NCBI RefSeq assembly: GCF_007859865.1
Contig: NZ_SJPI01000004.1
Location: 186,001 to 250,000, forward strand
Direction: 5' to 3'
Length of the DNA stretch: 64,000 bases
DNA from: Rubripirellula amarantea
GTDB lineage: Bacteria > Planctomycetota > Planctomycetia > Pirellulales > Pirellulaceae
Position numbers and translations under genes: made by a program
The notes under the pieces: model-generated
Told to the model about the DNA's origin: nothing
Database searches by the model: none
Seen by the model: the letters and a program-made list of their open reading frames with translations, nothing else
Shown: one piece after another, positions 35,265-44,091 of the stretch
Position numbering within the stretch: position 1 is the first letter of the stretch
Layout: every line of letters starts with the position of its first letter

Positions 35265-35735
35265 AAAACTCGTTCTGGCAAGCGACTTGTCATCGCGATG
35301 CGATTGTACTGGTTCGACTTAATTTCGGTTGGCTCGATGAATCGCAATTTCGCATCGCTATGAAACGGAAAACTCAAATCATGTTGCTTTCACCGAGCAT
35401 CAATTGATGTGCCGTGCTTCGTCAACAAGACCGTGGCCAAAATACAGTGACCGGACCGGGCACCGTAAGCGCCGAAAAAACTAAGCGTTTCCCTGATGAT
35501 GAACTCGGCAATGACGTGGGCAACCCGGTAAATGTTGTCTGTTTCGCGACAGTCGAGGGAAGCCGTTGTGGCCACAGGTGGTAGCAATTAGCGCCTTTGT
35601 TGATTATCTTTCCGCGGACAATTGATCAAGTTCGACCTGAACATTGAATTTTCCCAGGCGGGGGAAAGTACAGCTTGGGAGGACGTGCGTCGCTGTCGTT
35701 CCGAAGTCTTTTCTCAATATTTGAAGGTGGAAAAA
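35265..35735. other. Gap of about 470 bases before the ammonium transporter
   Basis: No gene is supported. An in-frame extension of the transporter reaches 35622 but lacks a ribosome site and would bury the signal peptide. I looked for a sigma54 promoter, as is common for amt genes, and found no acceptable GG-N10-GC element. The gap therefore probably holds the transporter promoter in an unrecognised form. Confidence 0.5.
35724..35730 (+). promoter_or_regulatory. Ribosome binding site that fixes the amt start
   Basis: AAGGTGG at 35724-35730 lies five bases before ATG 35736. It is one of the clearest Shine-Dalgarno sequences in the window and decides in favour of ATG 35736 over the in-frame codon at 35622. 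Confidence 0.7.
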
Positions 35736-37223
35736 ATGTTGTTTTGGTCCGTTCGTCAATGCGCGAGGCCCCGATTATTTGGCTTGCTGCTTCTCGTTTC
35801 CCTTCTTAGCGTGACTCCACTTACTTCACACGCTCAGGAAGCTGAATCCGCATCCGCGGAATTGGTGACTAGTGCTCCTGATGCTGCCAAGGTCGCGACC
35901 GAAGATCCCGCCGGTTTGACCGACAGCCAAATCGCCAACGGCCCCTACGCTGCCCACAACGCGTGGATGCTTGTTTGTTGTGCATTGGTGCTGTTCATGA
36001 CCGCCCCCGGATTAGCAATGTTCTACGGCGGTTTGGTTCGTCGTAAGAATGTCCTTAGCGTGATGATGCAGTGCGTGTTCTTGATGGGATTGATGACGGT
36101 CCTTTGGGGACTCTATGGCTACTCGCTCGCTTTTGGAGGCGACGGTGGCTGGATCGGCAATGCGGATCACTTGTTCATGAATGGCGTTCAACGGCAATGG
36201 AGCGACATCCTGAACGAGCCGATCACACCCATGTTTGGCGACATGACCATGCTCACCCACATGCTTTTCCAAGGCATGTTCTTCATTATCACCCCTGCTT
36301 TGATTTGCGGTGCTTTTGCTGAGCGGATGAAGTTTTCGTCCATGGTAGTATTCTCGGTATTCTGGGGCACGTTCATCTACTGTCCGCTATGCCATTGGGT
36401 TTGGGATGGTGGTCCACTGGCGTACGGTGCAGACGGCGCGTTCGCTGGCGGTGCGTTGGACTTCGCGGGCGGAACCGTGGTCCATATCAGCAGTGGTATC
36501 TCGGCGTTAGTCGCCGCCATCATGATCGGTCCCCGCATGGGCTTTATGAAGGAACCGATTCAACCGCACAACTTGACTTACACGGCGCTTGGTGCAGCGA
36601 TGCTGTGGGTGGGATGGTTTGGCTTCAATGCCGGCAGTGAGTTGCTCTCCGATGGATTGACCAGCAGCGCGTTCGCTGTCACCCACTTTTCTGCTGCTGC
36701 AGGTGGCCTCGCTTGGGCGTTGACCGAGTGGGGTGCTCTTGGCAAACCAACGGTTCTGGGTGCCAGCAGTGGTGCGGTTGCTGGCTTGGTCTGCATCACA
36801 CCAGCGGCCGGTTTCGTTCAACCAATGCCCGCAATCGTGATGGGATTGGCCGCAGGAATCGTCTGCTACATCGCCTGCAGTAAGCTGAAGATGATGCTTA
36901 AGTACGACGATGCGTTGGATGCATTTGGGGTCCACGGCGTGGGTGGAATCCTGGGCGCGCTATTGACCGGTGTCTTCGCCACTCGGGCGTGCTGGAACGT
37001 GGCCGACGGTAACAAGATTGGCCTGATCGAATCCGGTGGCGACTTCTCGCTAATGATCGGACAAGCAGTCGCGATACTGGTCACTTTGCTGTTCGCCGGC
37101 GTAGGCAGCTTTGTCCTGTTGAAGGTGATCGACATCCTGATGGGAATTCGGGTTGCCCCAGATCGCGAACAACGTGGCCTCGACGTCAGCGATCATGGTG
37201 AAGAAGGCTACATGATGGCGTAA
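35736..37223 (+). CDS. amt: Ammonium transporter
   Basis: A 495-residue Amt/MEP/Rh channel for ammonium uptake in the inner membrane. A signal-peptide-like hydrophobic segment (about residues 16-32, ending in SHAQ) precedes a 45-residue polar periplasmic stretch, then 11 membrane spans begin at AHNAWMLVCCALVLFMTAPG. Family hallmarks are MFYGGLVRRKNVLSVMMQ, CPLCHWVWDGGPLAYG, DFAGGTVVHISSGISALVAA (first pore His) and DALDAFGVHGVGGILGALLTG (second pore His). The chosen start is supported by a strong ribosome site. There is no adjacent glnK. An intrinsic terminator follows 33 bases after the stop. Confidence 0.96.
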   Translation: MLFWSVRQCARPRLFGLLLLVSLLSVTPLTSHAQEAESASAELVTSAPDAAKVATEDPAGLTDSQIANGPYAAHNAWMLVCCALVLFMTAPGLAMFYGGLVRRKNVLSVMMQCVFLMGLMTVLWGLYGYSLAFGGDGGWIGNADHLFMNGVQRQWSDILNEPITPMFGDMTMLTHMLFQGMFFIITPALICGAFAERMKFSSMVVFSVFWGTFIYCPLCHWVWDGGPLAYGADGAFAGGALDFAGGTVVHISSGISALVAAIMIGPRMGFMKEPIQPHNLTYTALGAAMLWVGWFGFNAGSELLSDGLTSSAFAVTHFSAAAGGLAWALTEWGALGKPTVLGASSGAVAGLVCITPAAGFVQPMPAIVMGLAAGIVCYIACSKLKMMLKYDDALDAFGVHGVGGILGALLTGVFATRACWNVADGNKIGLIESGGDFSLMIGQAVAILVTLLFAGVGSFVLLKVIDILMGIRVAPDREQRGLDVSDHGEEGYMMA

Positions 37224-37317: not shown

Positions 37318-38262
37318 TTGCAAACGACCTCTGCCTCCAAGTCATCGTTCATTCGCTTCGCGCTTCCCCTCGTGATGCTGACGCTCGCTCTAACGACCGG
37401 AGTATCTCATGCGGACGATTCGAAGTTCGTCGTCGCTGGATATCTTCCGAGTTACCGACTCGACGATTGGCAGCCTACCAACGATCGGATCACCGACATC
37501 ATCTACTTTGGACCGTCCGTTACCGAAGATGGTAGTCTTGATGTCTCGGGTTATTCCGACGCAGCACGGCAACGCTTGGCGGAAATACGCGAGAAAACCA
37601 ACGCACGAATACTTGTCACCGTAGGCGGATGGGGAAAATCGAAGGGATTCGCGACGATGGCATCCAACGATGACAACCGGGCCGCTTTCGTCGAAACGTT
37701 GATGACATTTTTGCGAGATGAAGGTTTCGACGGCGTGGACTATGACTGGGAACATCCGGCCAATGCCAAGGAGCTTCACGGATACACTCAACTCGTCGTC
37801 GACACCAAGGCTGCCTTGCCCTACGGAAAGCTCGTCACGCTCGCGATGGCCCCCTGGAACCAATTGGAACCGGCACTGTTCAGCGCGATCGACCGCATTC
37901 ACTTGATGTCCTATGACCACGGTTTCCCTCAAGCGACCTTGGACAAATCGGTGGCTGATGTGGACATGGTTCGCGGCATGGGCTGCCCCGCGTCCAAGAT
38001 TGTGCTCGGAATTCCGTTCTATGGTCGAAACAAAGACCGGGCCGCGAAGACCTATGCTCAGCTTGCTCGAAGTCAGTCGGCGGGACCGAGCGTGAACATC
38101 ATCGATGGGTTCGCAGCCAATGGGCCAGAGCTAGTCACTGCGAAAGTTCGCTTGGCAAAGACCGAAAAACTCGCTGGCGTGATGATCTGGGAAGTTGGGC
38201 AAGATACCCAAGGTGAGTCATCGCTAATGAACGCCATTTCCAAAGCGATTGCCGAGAAGTAA
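37318..38262 (+). CDS. GH18 family glycoside hydrolase, exported
   Basis: A 314-residue chitinase-fold hydrolase. A signal peptide (about residues 1-32, ending SHA-DD) precedes a single TIM barrel. The substrate-binding segment RILVTVGGWG lies near 97-106. The catalytic motif D138-G-V-D141-Y-D143-W-E145 gives Glu145 as the acid. MSYDHG follows near residue 196, and the last barrel strand ends in GVMIWEVGQD. Such enzymes cleave beta-1,4-GlcNAc polymers through the N-acetyl group; an endo-GlcNAcase role is the alternative. The start is TTG 37318, giving the complete signal peptide, though ATG 37375 inside it is possible. It lies just after the amt terminator, so it needs its own promoter or read-through. 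Confidence 0.87.
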   Translation: MQTTSASKSSFIRFALPLVMLTLALTTGVSHADDSKFVVAGYLPSYRLDDWQPTNDRITDIIYFGPSVTEDGSLDVSGYSDAARQRLAEIREKTNARILVTVGGWGKSKGFATMASNDDNRAAFVETLMTFLRDEGFDGVDYDWEHPANAKELHGYTQLVVDTKAALPYGKLVTLAMAPWNQLEPALFSAIDRIHLMSYDHGFPQATLDKSVADVDMVRGMGCPASKIVLGIPFYGRNKDRAAKTYAQLARSQSAGPSVNIIDGFAANGPELVTAKVRLAKTEKLAGVMIWEVGQDTQGESSLMNAISKAIAEK

Positions 38263-38515
38263 ACGTTGCTTCAACGATACTGCTCCACCATCACTGCTTC
38301 GCAACCACTGCTTTGTGATCTGCTAGCGAAAAGCACTGGGCAGACACACACGGCGCATCGGTGAAGTCTAATGATGGCAAAGCAACGTGTGGCGACTCCA
38401 TCGCGGGTTCTAGCAACCTAACGAACGCAATTTAACGAACCTTGCGACGCCCATGGGAAACTAGGTAGTCTCGCTATTCTTCGACGATGCTGTTCCTCGA
38501 GCAAGGATGCTCTCC

Positions 38516-39589
38516 ATGGCCAACGCACTGCCTCAACCTCACACGACTGCTCCCGCGGTGCCGCAAACACTGATTGAGCGGCTATCGATGGTACGTGACA
38601 TTGTGGCCCAGGAAGCTCGATCGCTGATGGAAACATCAAAGTCGCTGGGTGTCGATGCCGTCAAAGCCGCCGAAATGACGGCCCAATGTCATGGAAACGT
38701 CGTTATCACTGGCGTCGGCAAAGCCGGTTTGGTTGGCCAGAAACTAGTCGCCACTCTCGCCAGCACCGGCACTCCCGCTCATTTCCTTCACCCCACCGAA
38801 GCGATCCACGGTGATCTTGGACGCGTCGGAAAGGGCGACTTAGTTTGGGCATTGAGCAATTCAGGTCGCAGCAGCGAGGTGGTTCAGATTGCGTCGATCC
38901 TGCGTCGCCAAAGCAGCGGACTGATCGCATTTACCGCCTGCACGGACAATCCGTTGTCCGCCGCAGCAGACGTCACCGTATGTCTTGGAAAACATACCGA
39001 GGCATGCCCACACGGACTCGCCCCAACGACTAGCACGACCGTGATGATGGCGGTCGGCGATGCAGTTGCCATGTTGGTGAGTCGCTTACGTTCGTTCACC
39101 GCCCAGGACTTCGCGAAGTTCCATCCGGGAGGCGCTCTCGGACAAAAAATGGCACAAGTCGATCAAATCATGCGTCCGCTCGCACAATGCCGCGTTGCAT
39201 CCCAAACCATTACCATTCGTGACGCAATGGTCTCAGCGTCGCAAGCTGGTCGACGCAGCGGAGCTGTGATGCTTGTCAACGATGACCTTCGGTTATCGGG
39301 AATCTTCACCGACAGCGACTTGGCTCGTCTACTTGAAGCGCGTGATGAAGCAGCCCTTGATGAGCCTATCGCAAATCGAATGACAACGTCCCCCACCACG
39401 GTCGCTAAAGGCATGTTATTGCAAGACGCAGTGGCCGTGATGTCGCAAAAACGAATTAGTGAGCTGCCAGTAGTGGACGCCCAAGGCAAACCCGTGGGAC
39501 TGATCGACATCACCGACATCGTAACGTTGTCCGACAAATCCAATGGCACTCCGACAATTCCCATGACCAGCTCACCTGACGCTGTTTGA
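38516..39589 (+). CDS. kdsD: Arabinose-5-phosphate isomerase (KDO pathway)
   Basis: Interconverts ribulose 5-phosphate and arabinose 5-phosphate, the first step to KDO of lipopolysaccharide. The 357-residue protein has an N-terminal SIS domain (VVITGVGKAGLVGQKLVATL, GDLGRVGKGDLVWALSNSGRSSEV), the KdsD-specific HGLAPTTSTTVMMAVGDAVA and FAKFHPGGALGQKM segments, then two CBS domains (about 205-345). ATG 38516 is preceded by AAGGA at eight bases and was preferred to ATG 38507. The kdsC gene follows after 57 bases, as in E. coli, so the context agrees with the assignment. Confidence 0.95.
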   Translation: MANALPQPHTTAPAVPQTLIERLSMVRDIVAQEARSLMETSKSLGVDAVKAAEMTAQCHGNVVITGVGKAGLVGQKLVATLASTGTPAHFLHPTEAIHGDLGRVGKGDLVWALSNSGRSSEVVQIASILRRQSSGLIAFTACTDNPLSAAADVTVCLGKHTEACPHGLAPTTSTTVMMAVGDAVAMLVSRLRSFTAQDFAKFHPGGALGQKMAQVDQIMRPLAQCRVASQTITIRDAMVSASQAGRRSGAVMLVNDDLRLSGIFTDSDLARLLEARDEAALDEPIANRMTTSPTTVAKGMLLQDAVAVMSQKRISELPVVDAQGKPVGLIDITDIVTLSDKSNGTPTIPMTSSPDAV

Positions 39590-39646: not shown

Positions 39647-40162
39647 GTGAAAGACGCTGATCTCGCTGAACCGATACGTTGCATCTTGTCCGATGTAGAC
39701 GGAGTGATGACCGATGGGCGTATCATCTACGATTCCAGCGGTGTGGAAACCAAGCAATTCAATGTACGAGATGGCTTGGGTATCAAGCTGTGGATGAAAA
39801 GCGGATTCCGTTTTGGAATCTTGACCGCTCGAAACAGCCCAGTCGTACAACGGCGGGGCGAAGAACTTGGCATCGATTCAATCCAGCAGGGCTTCGAGCA
39901 AAAGTTGCCTGCCGCGATGGAAACTTGGCAATCTTGGGGAATCGCTCCCGCGGAAGTGTGCTACATCGGCGACGACCTTCCTGACTTGCCCGTCATGCGC
40001 CAAGTTGGACTCGCGGTGGCTCCCGTGGACGCATCCCTCGACGTACGAAACCAAGCTCAATGGGTGCTGCGTTCCAAGGGTGGCGAAGGGGCTGTACGAG
40101 AATTGGTCGATCGACTTCTGCGAGCCAAGAACCGATGGGAGGAGCATGTCCGCGTGAGCTAG
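39647..40162 (+). CDS. kdsC: 3-deoxy-manno-octulosonate-8-phosphate phosphatase
   Basis: HAD-superfamily phosphatase that releases KDO from KDO 8-phosphate. The 171-residue length is typical of the capless KdsC group. Motif I is LSDVDGVMTDG with the catalytic pair D16 and D18. FNVRDGLGIKLW, FGILTARNSP (motif II Thr) and VCYIGDDLPDLPVM (motif IV acids) follow. The start is GTG. It lies between kdsD and the very long protein discussed as an LptC/LptA equivalent, which parallels the proteobacterial kdsD-kdsC-lptC-lptA order. Confidence 0.95.
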   Translation: MKDADLAEPIRCILSDVDGVMTDGRIIYDSSGVETKQFNVRDGLGIKLWMKSGFRFGILTARNSPVVQRRGEELGIDSIQQGFEQKLPAAMETWQSWGIAPAEVCYIGDDLPDLPVMRQVGLAVAPVDASLDVRNQAQWVLRSKGGEGAVRELVDRLLRAKNRWEEHVRVS

Positions 40163-40204: not shown

Positions 40205-43200
40205 ATGGCTCGAATCATCAACTACTTCACCGCATTGATGTTCCTTTTGGGAACCGCGATTATCTACCAGAACACGTTTGTGCCATGGTTAGAACCCGTC
40301 GCTGCGCAGCCGGTCCCGGCCAGACCCGCCCAAGAACTTCGCGGTAACGATTCGCTGCGTGATTTATTTGCCGAAGACAGTTGGCAACGAGGATCTTGTA
40401 AGTGCCTGCAAACTTCCGAAGGCATGTTGCTGTTTGAAAAGTGGGAACAATCCGGCGGCGATCAATGGAAGTTATGGCCCGTCACCGTTGTTTTGGGACG
40501 TGGAATTAGCGCTAAGAAAGACGATCAACCGATCATCTTAGAAGCTGCTCAAGGTGCCGAAATCAAATTTACTTCATCGCTTGATGTGATGAGCGGCGGG
40601 GCACCACCGATCGACCGAGGTCGCATGATTGGTCCGGTTCATATCTATCGAGCGGACCCGCATAAACAAAATGCCGAAAGCGATCGTTCCATCGATCTGA
40701 GAACATCAAACGTCGGCATTGACCGAAAGAAGCTTTGGACCACCGATGCCATTGAGATGCAGTTCGGGCGAGCTCGAATGATTGGTCGTGACCTTACGAT
40801 TCACTTGGCGGGTAACCCGATCTCTAACAGTTCCGGAAGTCCAGCTTCGATCCTTGATCGAATGGAATTGATTTATCTCGATGAATTGGTCATGCCGTTG
40901 GAAAAGAGCGACGCCACGGTGGAGATACAATGCAGCGGCCGGGTGGAGTACGACTTCGCAATTGACCATCTGATGATGCGTGATGAGGTGTCGTTGATTC
41001 ACCGCTCGGCAACCGGCCAAGTGGACGACTTCCGATGTGATTCGATCGAATTGGGCCTCAACAATCCAACCGATTCAACCATCCTAAGGACCGGTCCGCT
41101 CGATTGGGTAAACCGCATTGTTGCGAAGGGCAATCCCGCCGCGGCAAACCTACCTAGCTTTGACGCCAGCATTACCGGTGACCAGATCGACGTCGATGTT
41201 TCGAGGGGACGAATTGAAGCCATCGGAAAACAAGGCATTCGCATTCGTCGCGGTGGCATTTCTGCGAGTCTTGCTAACTTGGTCTATCAATTCGATCCAC
41301 GTGACCCGAAACGGATCGGAAACATTTTGGTCGACGGGCCTGGCATCGTTTCCATCGACGATCCTGAAGTTGCAGTCCGAAAAGCCCAATGGGCGGGCGC
41401 ACTGGAAGTGAAACCAGAAAAGCTAAACGCCGACGACGCTACGAATGCGAATGTCAGCGTTTACGTTGAAGATGATGTTCAAGCTTGGCTTGTCGATGGC
41501 GGCGAATTTAGCGCCGACAACGTCGAGGGCATTCTTAAGTCAGTCGACTCGAAGGTTCCCGGTGAACGCCCATCACTGGCCCCTGAACAGTTCGACATCA
41601 AGGGCAACGTCCGTATCAACACCACCGCAATCGCCGCCGACACACAACGATTGCGGTTGTTTTTCGTCGACGACGAACGAGCGCCCGTGCCGCGCAAAGC
41701 CGCTCCGCCCGCCTCACCACTTCGGCAATGGGTGTCGCAGCCAACAACCAATAACCTCGTTGACCAACCGAGCAGTGCCGTCGCACCGGTTGCCCGCAGT
41801 CGTCCTGAGGTAAGCGGTGACATCATCATTGCACAGCTTCGTCGCACGACGACCGGCCTTAGCGCAAAGCAACTGAAGGTGGAAGGCAACGTACGAGTTT
41901 CGCACAAGATCGAAGCCAACGGACAAAATTTGGATACGGTGCTAACCGGTGAGTTGCTGCAGTTGCTTAATCACGGTGGTGAAGACGTGTTGCAACTGGG
42001 AAGTGGAATCGAGAGTCCAGCGCGGTTCGAAATTGGCGACGGTTTCTTTGTTGGACCCGAGATACAAATCCGACCTCGCGAGAACATCATTTGGATCAAG
42101 GACGCCGGAGAGTTCCAGTTACCTTCCAACGCTCTGCCCACCGGATTGGCTGGTCAAAACGGAAGCTCAAAAATTCAGTGGATCAAGCCTCCGTATTGTC
42201 GCTGGCAGGGCGAGATGCTGTTCGACGGTCGAAAGATTCAATTGACCGACGGAGTCGATATTTCCGCTGCGATTTTGAACGGGACTGAGCCATGGGAATT
42301 CAAGATGAGTGGCGAACGCCTGGAGGTCGACCTTTGGGACGACGTGAATCTGCAAGACATGGCTGCCGTTCGACAGGCTCGCGTGCAAGCGATCACGCTC
42401 CTAAAGTCAAATGAACACCCGGTGTTTGTCGAAGCGTTTCAACGGGCCGCGGACGGAGTGCTTGAAGCGAAGCATTTGCTTTATGCTCATTCGATCACCA
42501 TGTCGCCTGGGATGACGGCACCCCAATTTGCGTTGCTGTCGCCCGAACAACGCGCCAATGCATCGGTGGGCAGTGGAAAGATTGTCGGTGAAGGGCCTGG
42601 GTGGTATCGCGCCTGGGTCCCCAGCCCGAGCGAAGGACCAATGCAACACGACCAAACGGCAACGATGGTCGATGACGCCGAACGACCACTCACCGGAATT
42701 CATTTGACGTACAACGACCAGATGACCGCTGACCTGACAACTCGGGCACTCACCTTTGAACGTGGCGTAAGAGTGGGATCGCGATCCGTCACTCATTGGG
42801 AAGATACGTTCAACGCAGCCGAGATGACGGCGTTGGGGGTGGGTGAGTCAACGCTTGATTGCGACCAACTTCGCGTGGCGATGGAGCCACCTTTGCCCGG
42901 ACGACCGGCGATAGGCGTAGCCACCATCCCTTGGGAAATGCAGGCGATTAGCGGCGTCGTGTTCCGCACTCGAAGTGACAAGGGCTTGCTCGAGGGCACC
43001 GCCAGCCGAGCGGCCTATGCCGCTTCGAAAGACATGTTCACTGCCCAAGGAGCACCCTCGCGACCGGCGATTATCCGACGCAGCCTGCCCGATGGGACTC
43101 CACAGCTCGAAACCGCTGTCCGGTCCATGGTGATCCGACCTCGAACCATGACCATCGACAGCATGGAATTTGAACGAGGCTCCGTGGCCACCCCTACCCA

Positions 43201-43237
43201 GGGAATTTCCGCGAGCGGTGCTGCGAATCGCCGCTAG
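40205..43237 (+). CDS. Giant LptC/LptA-like envelope protein (predicted)
   Basis: A 1010-residue protein with one N-terminal membrane anchor (about residues 5-22, FTALMFLLGTAIIY) and an otherwise beta-rich periplasmic body. The body has repeated units of the OstA/LptA type: QCSGRVEYDFAIDHLMMRDE near 240, FDIKGNVRINTTAIAADTQR near 460, LKVEGNVRVSHKIEANGQNL near 560, LTTRALTFERGVRVGSRSV near 845 and, near the end, LEGTASRAAYAASKDMFTAQ, the ending expected in LptA-like repeats. It occupies the place of lptC-lptA after kdsD-kdsC, 42 bases downstream. LptC and LptA of E. coli are each under 200 residues. I infer a fused lipopolysaccharide transport bridge; this is not proven. No lptB follows. Confidence 0.65.
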   Translation: MARIINYFTALMFLLGTAIIYQNTFVPWLEPVAAQPVPARPAQELRGNDSLRDLFAEDSWQRGSCKCLQTSEGMLLFEKWEQSGGDQWKLWPVTVVLGRGISAKKDDQPIILEAAQGAEIKFTSSLDVMSGGAPPIDRGRMIGPVHIYRADPHKQNAESDRSIDLRTSNVGIDRKKLWTTDAIEMQFGRARMIGRDLTIHLAGNPISNSSGSPASILDRMELIYLDELVMPLEKSDATVEIQCSGRVEYDFAIDHLMMRDEVSLIHRSATGQVDDFRCDSIELGLNNPTDSTILRTGPLDWVNRIVAKGNPAAANLPSFDASITGDQIDVDVSRGRIEAIGKQGIRIRRGGISASLANLVYQFDPRDPKRIGNILVDGPGIVSIDDPEVAVRKAQWAGALEVKPEKLNADDATNANVSVYVEDDVQAWLVDGGEFSADNVEGILKSVDSKVPGERPSLAPEQFDIKGNVRINTTAIAADTQRLRLFFVDDERAPVPRKAAPPASPLRQWVSQPTTNNLVDQPSSAVAPVARSRPEVSGDIIIAQLRRTTTGLSAKQLKVEGNVRVSHKIEANGQNLDTVLTGELLQLLNHGGEDVLQLGSGIESPARFEIGDGFFVGPEIQIRPRENIIWIKDAGEFQLPSNALPTGLAGQNGSSKIQWIKPPYCRWQGEMLFDGRKIQLTDGVDISAAILNGTEPWEFKMSGERLEVDLWDDVNLQDMAAVRQARVQAITLLKSNEHPVFVEAFQRAADGVLEAKHLLYAHSITMSPGMTAPQFALLSPEQRANASVGSGKIVGEGPGWYRAWVPSPSEGPMQHDQTATMVDDAERPLTGIHLTYNDQMTADLTTRALTFERGVRVGSRSVTHWEDTFNAAEMTALGVGESTLDCDQLRVAMEPPLPGRPAIGVATIPWEMQAISGVVFRTRSDKGLLEGTASRAAYAASKDMFTAQGAPSRPAIIRRSLPDGTPQLETAVRSMVIRPRTMTIDSMEFERGSVATPTQGISASGAANRR

Positions 43238-43404: not shown

Positions 43405-44091
43405 ATGACTAAAACCAAAGTTCTGGTCGTTGAGGATTATCGTCCACTCGCCGAAACCCTTGAATACCAACTTCAACGGGCTGGCTATGATGTTCACCTT
43501 GCGGCCGACGGTCGCGAGGCCATTCACCAAGCCCGGCTCATTCTGCCAGACGTCGTGTTTCTCGATGTTGACCTGCCCGTCATCAATGGCGTTGATGTCT
43601 GTAAGCAGTTACGGTCGGATCCCTCCACCAAGGAAATGCTGATCTTGATGCTTAGCGCCCTCGGTGAAGAATCCGATCAAGTGGTCGGGTTCGCCGTAGG
43701 CGCCGATGACTATGTCGTCAAACCCGTGGAAAGCTACAAGGTGTTGCTTCAACGATTGAAGGCACTGCTACGTCGACGCGAGCCATCCATTGACGACGTG
43801 GATCAGTACACCCGCTACGGTGTAACGGTCGATCGCCGCCGTTTTGTCGCTACTCTGAACGGCGAACAACTCAAGCTAACCAAGAGTGAATTCCAACTTC
43901 TCGAAGCACTCATACGCCAACCTGGTCGTGCATTTGATCGCAACGAACTTGTCGGGGCCGCGCTCGGTGAAGACACACTTGTACTTGAACGAACGATTGA
44001 TGTTCACATTCGCGCATTGCGAAAGAAGATGGGCGAGGCTGCTGATCTGATCGAAACCGTCCGTGGGATCGGCTATCGATTTCGCGAGTAA
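43405..44091 (+). CDS. OmpR/PhoB-type response regulator
   Basis: A 228-residue DNA-binding response regulator. The receiver domain (1-120) has the acidic pocket E10-D11, phosphoacceptor Asp54 in VVFLDVDLPVINGVDV and the Lys of DYVVKPVESYKVL. The C-terminal winged helix (about 130-228) has LTKSEFQLLEALIRQPGRAFDRNEL and ERTIDVHIRALRKKMGEAADLIETVRGIGYRF, the standard Trans_reg_C ending. No histidine kinase gene is adjacent, so it is an orphan here. Its target is unknown. Confidence 0.95.
   Translation: MTKTKVLVVEDYRPLAETLEYQLQRAGYDVHLAADGREAIHQARLILPDVVFLDVDLPVINGVDVCKQLRSDPSTKEMLILMLSALGEESDQVVGFAVGADDYVVKPVESYKVLLQRLKALLRRREPSIDDVDQYTRYGVTVDRRRFVATLNGEQLKLTKSEFQLLEALIRQPGRAFDRNELVGAALGEDTLVLERTIDVHIRALRKKMGEAADLIETVRGIGYRFRE

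Follow-up and report, generated by a model that had tools for sequence, protein, structure and literature searches.

A probable single-chain LptC-LptA fusion encoded after kdsD and kdsC in the planctomycete Rubripirellula amarantea

Within a 64,000-nucleotide window of contig C4 of the 6.95 Mb genome of Rubripirellula amarantea (order Pirellulales, phylum Planctomycetota), an open reading frame (ORF) with an ATG start codes for a protein of 1010 amino acids, P0001, which is very probably a single-chain fusion of LptC and LptA, two components of the Lpt system of lipopolysaccharide (LPS) transport. Sequence profiles and structural models together show a chain composed of a predicted membrane anchor, one LptC-like beta-taco unit and three LptA/LptD-N-like units, encoded after kdsD and kdsC. 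A first-pass annotation of this DNA had placed a 1010-residue protein directly after kdsD-kdsC, and this was confirmed by the ORF itself and by NCBIfam matches over cut-off for both upstream genes, which lie on the same strand, with 42 bases separating the end of the kdsC ORF from the start of the P0001 ORF (Table 1). Since the annotated order in E. coli K-12 is kdsD-kdsC-lptC-lptA-lptB-rpoN, P0001 occupies the position of lptC and lptA. The annotation had further proposed that one membrane-anchored multi-repeat protein takes the place of LptC and an LptA oligomer, a predicted role that is supported by the models, by searches of the same genome and by fusions found elsewhere in the phylum.

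Searched alone, P0001 matched no Pfam family at E ≤ 10, PF06835 (LptC) and PF03968 (LptA/LptD N-domain) included, and phmmer found no match in the PDB; its sole NCBIfam match, to a sacsin domain, was rejected as chance (13.7 bits, cut-off 50). Relatives were identified in 56 of 60 genomes in a survey of the order (R. amarantea included), and profile A1 found the remaining four, giving 60/60; the closest named relative among those fetched is Rubripirellula obstinata, at 51% identity. An alignment was made of 56 members, two of which come from another order of the same class, leaving out three sequences cut by contig or locus ends (L018, L027 and L034). The aligned proteins are 971-1309 residues long (median 1038, standard deviation 53). 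When 42 of them were scanned singly, PF03968 was detected in 29/42 and PF06835 in 7/42 (best E-value, 1.5e-6) at E ≤ 0.1, and the only other Pfam family to appear matched one member. A separate single-sequence scan placed PF03968 over its cut-off in all six giants included. Searched against PDB sequences, profile A1 gave eight matches at E ≤ 10, seven of them LptA (one as yhbN), the best of which (E 0.041) is not significant alone.

Profile A8, which contains no E. coli sequence, was tested on nine proteins of E. coli, and the E-values refer to a set of that size. LptC (E 1e-4, positions 155-245) and LptA (E 3e-10, positions 799-942) were the sole two of the nine above threshold and were found in the expected order, with E. 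coli LptA aligning with the C-terminal unit of the profile. As the family had first been iterated with its own outer members, a separate test was made with an order-only profile of 57 sequences, the three truncated ones included and none from outside the order. Run on 714 ORFs taken from non-Pirellulales loci, some of which are present twice, this profile gave 28 matches, representing 22 distinct genes, and against the reversed sequences it gave 0/714. The matches ranged from E ~1e-150, for two full-length homologues within the class (L105 and L106), to E 4e-4, and took in a 167-aa LptA-like protein (L067, E 4e-7). L105 and L106 score 36.1 and 30.2 bits with PF03968, above its cut-off of 20.4. 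All 28 sit in loci already marked for PF03968; these loci had been chosen for PF03968, but the order-only profile had no knowledge of that choice, and the LptD and LptF/G loci within the 714-ORF set were unmatched. Five of the 27 PF03968 genomes fetched were missed by the order-only profile (G098, G104, G120, G124 and G166). Among the nine E. coli proteins LptA alone passes with it (1.7e-5), LptC having an E-value of 0.021 and being placed at the wrong end.

In template-free structural models, P0001 beyond its anchor is mostly beta wherever the models are confident, and one LptC-type unit together with LptA/LptD-N-type units is predicted along the chain, in keeping with the OstA-type jellyrolls that the first-pass annotation had anticipated. 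The modelled chain has an N-terminal anchor and then a beta-taco domain, as in LptC, and carries the beta-taco (jellyroll) fold of LptA/LptD-N; its last unit superimposes on LptA with a root-mean-square deviation of 2.2 over 122 residues, and no outer-membrane barrel was assigned in the chain. The single N-terminal anchor claimed at first pass, which is a helix in the model, coincides with a run of hydrophobic residues close to the N terminus in 56/56 aligned homologues, in which Tyr21 (55/56) and Pro27 (52/56) are conserved. A lipobox was found in 0/56, and [AVGS]xA follows the hydrophobic stretch in 35/56, in alignment columns without a fixed site. The anchor probably stays uncleaved, but the latter motif would also permit cleavage by signal peptidase.

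Comparison of the profile with itself aligned 311-952 with 144-800 (E 3e-10), indicating that the units repeat. The first-pass annotation had likewise described repeated beta-rich units, together with shared sequence motifs, which fared differently here. GxVx(I/V) occurs four times in P0001 (at least four in 16/2000 shuffles), and the C-terminal GxAxxAxY segment was found as described, once, at residue 931 (18/2000 shuffles); the combined pattern GxVx(I/V)...Axx(L/M), coded to allow a gap of at most 30, is present a single time, no more than chance would give (368/2000 shuffles). The repeated units are real, though the combined motif string does not reveal them, and literal motifs are weaker evidence for the units than the profile repeat.

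Across 119 genomes of the phylum (R. amarantea included), PF03968 was detected in 28 (some of these matches lying in LptD frames) and PF06835 in 24, and both were over cut-off within one open frame in 12 (G064, G096, G108, G110, G114, G129, G130, G140, G147, G165, G166 and G173). That such a fusion exists in the phylum is evident from homologues whose single frame carries clear LptC and LptA domains. At E ≤ 1e-6, with the weakest matches taken as listed, profile A8 matched 55/119 genomes, 47 of them in frames of at least 600 aa, and left 64/119 unmatched. The proteins form a graded series. LptC (226 aa) and LptA (168 aa) are separate in locus L144, and they are again separate in L151 (G077 contig C37, a draft contig of assumed origin), where kdsD, LptC, LptA, LptB and RpoN follow one another in the E. 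coli order. A 359-aa protein encoded after kdsC combines LptC with one LptA domain (L150). Proteins of 650-664 aa are encoded after kdsD-kdsC in L118-L120, that of L118 comprising an LptC domain (PF06835, E 9.6e-18) and three LptA stretches; a 793-aa protein has the same make-up (L058/L152), and chains elsewhere are about 1000 aa or longer. We read this series as suggesting fusion and unit gain inside the phylum.

The synteny of kdsD-kdsC with this family, proposed as a check at first pass, was observed in most loci of the order. In 34 loci representing other genera of Pirellulales, same-strand genes up to 2 kb upstream include kdsC in 32, kdsD in 29 and at least one of the two in 33, the remaining locus (L103) having neither; both are present in 4/4 Rubripirellula loci (L001-L004). 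Among phylum-level loci, at least one of kdsD and kdsC was found in 7/14 long and 3/8 short ones. A search with R. amarantea LptB for lptB adjoining the family, in the loci fetched by then, gave L151 (first seen as L061) as the sole close match beside LptA, at 52% identity, and the 660-aa fusion of L118 is followed by a predicted gene for a GDPD/HEAT protein.

A run of kdsD, kdsC, family member and lptD was observed in five planctomycetes outside Rubripirellula's class. In four (L167-L170), whose genomes were picked because family and lptD matches shared one contig, the run is contiguous and on one strand, and L110 has the same order. The order-only profile matches two of the four (E 4e-11 and 2.5e-22). 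Pfam lends weak support, with PF03968 in two (one just above and one just below cut-off), PF06835 over cut-off in one and no Pfam support in L168; the L110 protein has PF03968 at 26.7 bits and is unmatched by the order-only profile. The family profile suggests that all five are LptC-LptA fusions.

Other Lpt components are encoded in the R. amarantea genome: LptB (one match over cut-off, 325.5 bits; runner-up, 151.9), three proteins of LptF/G type over the Pfam cut-off, each matching PF03739 nearly end-to-end, and LptD. E. coli has two LptF/LptG-family permeases. The R. amarantea LptD has no Pfam match at E ≤ 0.1, so that Pfam-based surveys would overlook it; a profile of ten planctomycete LptD proteins has matches in 39/40 genomes, R. 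amarantea included. Ordinary lptC or lptA genes elsewhere in the genome, which the first-pass annotation had not expected, were not found within the limited reach of these searches: PF06835 had no match at E ≤ 10, PF03968 none at E ≤ 0.001, and a profile of the LptA unit matched the P0001 gene alone at E ≤ 10 (E 0.015).

The sole match of the LptA-unit profile argues against an alternative that we consider unlikely, in which P0001 represents LptC plus part of the bridge, and the rest of the distance to LptD is covered by a second protein, a soluble LptA of strongly diverged sequence. Three LptA-sized units already present in the modelled chain, and the five genomes in which the homologue is directly followed by lptD, also speak against it. 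Several observations nevertheless weigh in favour of this alternative. Planctomycete Lpt proteins are diverged, the R. amarantea LptD having been missed by Pfam and found with a phylum profile, and some members of the phylum keep separate LptC and LptA (L144 and L151). The absence of separate LptC and LptA carries limited weight, because P0001 itself escapes both Pfam models and because the LptA-unit profile, which reaches P0001 at E 0.015 and omits the genome's LptD, could overlook another LptA. The fixed length suggested at first pass suits the order and class, where length is nearly constant, but not the phylum, with chains of 650-664 or about 350 residues elsewhere.

The known Lpt system comprises LptB2FG, LptC, LptA and LptD. 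By analogy with it, the anchor and first (LptC-like) unit of P0001 would dock on LptB2FG, the stacked units would form a continuous hydrophobic groove along which LPS is pushed, and the LptD N-terminal domain would receive it from the last of them, so that one anchored polypeptide would stand in for LptC and the LptA oligomer. We moderately favour a general model in which, in Planctomycetota of the order Pirellulales, one covalent anchored chain constitutes the whole periplasmic LPS bridge: the first unit would act as LptC, the last would contact LptD, and the number of units, instead of an LptA oligomer, would set its length. This state would be the product of gene fusion and the addition of units during the history of the phylum, starting with lptC and lptA as separate genes and leading to chains of about 350, 650, 800 and at least 1000 residues.

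That LPS is the cargo here is suggested by the family itself, by its neighbours in the synthesis of Kdo (3-deoxy-D-manno-octulosonic acid), and by the lptD neighbour in five relatives. Co-location of Kdo synthesis genes across the order makes it rather improbable that a true Lpt bridge carries another envelope glycolipid in planctomycetes, even though an Lpt-type system is described in Borrelia, a diderm without LPS (PMC10353723). We give very little credence to a third possibility, that P0001 is an AsmA/TamB/YhdP-like bridge carrying phospholipids rather than LPS. Such proteins are likewise long, anchored beta-groove bridges, and Foldseek weakly matched a TamA-TamB hybrid (probability 0.20); however, neither AsmA nor TamB Pfam families were among the matches listed for the 42 giants and 21 outer relatives at E ≤ 0.1, where LptA and LptC families are present, and the neighbouring genes make Kdo or are lptD.

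Features of P0001, its locus and the Lpt system of R. amarantea are collected in Table 1. The next same-strand gene downstream of P0001 encodes a response regulator (at 43405). Upstream of kdsD lies an ORF at 37318-38262 that, from the look of its sequence, we take to encode a family 18 glycosidase, preceded by one at 35622-37223 that is presumably an ammonium transporter, judged in the same way.

Table 1 Features of the P0001 locus and of the Lpt system in R. amarantea (plain positions are those of the window)
Feature	Position	Strand	Basis or remarks
kdsD, arabinose-5-phosphate isomerase (KpsF/GutQ family)	38507..39589	+	TIGR00393 262.8 bits, cut-off 203.7; Pfam SIS and CBS
kdsC, Kdo-8-phosphate phosphatase	39647..40162	+	NCBIfam TIGR01670 158.4 bits, cut-off 106.95
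Probable fused LptC-LptA protein P0001, 1010 aa	40205..43237	+	sequence, profiles, models
Predicted N-terminal membrane anchor, residues 2-24	40208..40276	+	helix in model; hydrophobic segment in homologues
LptC-like beta-taco unit, residues 63-238	40391..40918	+	
LptA/LptD-N-like unit, residues 286-489	41060..41671	+	
Low-confidence linker, residues 491-530, Pro/Ala/Ser-rich	41675..41794	+	predicted local distance difference test (pLDDT) <50 at 491-504 and 511-530
LptA/LptD-N-like unit, residues 557-770	41873..42514	+	
LptA-like unit, residues 829-994	42689..43186	+	
LptF/LptG-family permeases (loci L111-L113)	G000:C2:101320-102468, C3:869280-870443, C1:568157-569263		Pfam
LptD, 1031-aa frame	G000:C1:2203570-2205876 (L153:3505-6597)		planctomycete LptD profile, E 5.4e-71

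Section 3.4 of one article describes the Lpt system of Planctomycetes as largely reduced (PMC8871954), and LptD is reported in all planctomycete genomes published by the time of another, from whose text the words LptA and LptC are absent (PMC3422733). Among the titles and abstract openings listed by searches of the open literature, none described a naturally occurring fusion of LptC with LptA in planctomycetes, subscription papers and preprints being outside the scope of the search. If our interpretation is true, a fused LptC-LptA chain would fill this gap in the planctomycete Lpt system and explain the seeming absence of LptC and LptA. It would also offer a naturally occurring bridge whose unit number is written into a single gene; adding or removing units would then allow tests of how bridge length relates to periplasm width and how transport by one chain compares with transport by stacked subunits.

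Compared with known systems, P0001 resembles LptC (PF06835; E. coli b3199) in having a single N-terminal anchor followed by an LptC-type unit and in being encoded directly after kdsC; however, in E. coli lptC stands as its own gene with 191 codons before the stop, whereas P0001 runs on into three LptA-type units. With LptA/LptH (PF03968; E. coli b3200) it has beta-taco units in common. LptA proper is a free, oligomerising periplasmic protein that stacks, whereas the units of P0001 are predicted to be joined covalently in tandem in one membrane-anchored chain. LptD-N-like units are shared with LptD, which in R. amarantea is a separate gene, and the lptC-lptA-lptB-rpoN arrangement of L151 differs from P0001 in that LptC and LptA are unjoined. 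By analogy, P0001 may work like LptC together with an LptA oligomer. Its linked and anchored units set it apart from an ordinary LptA, and its extension into LptA units sets it apart from an ordinary LptC.
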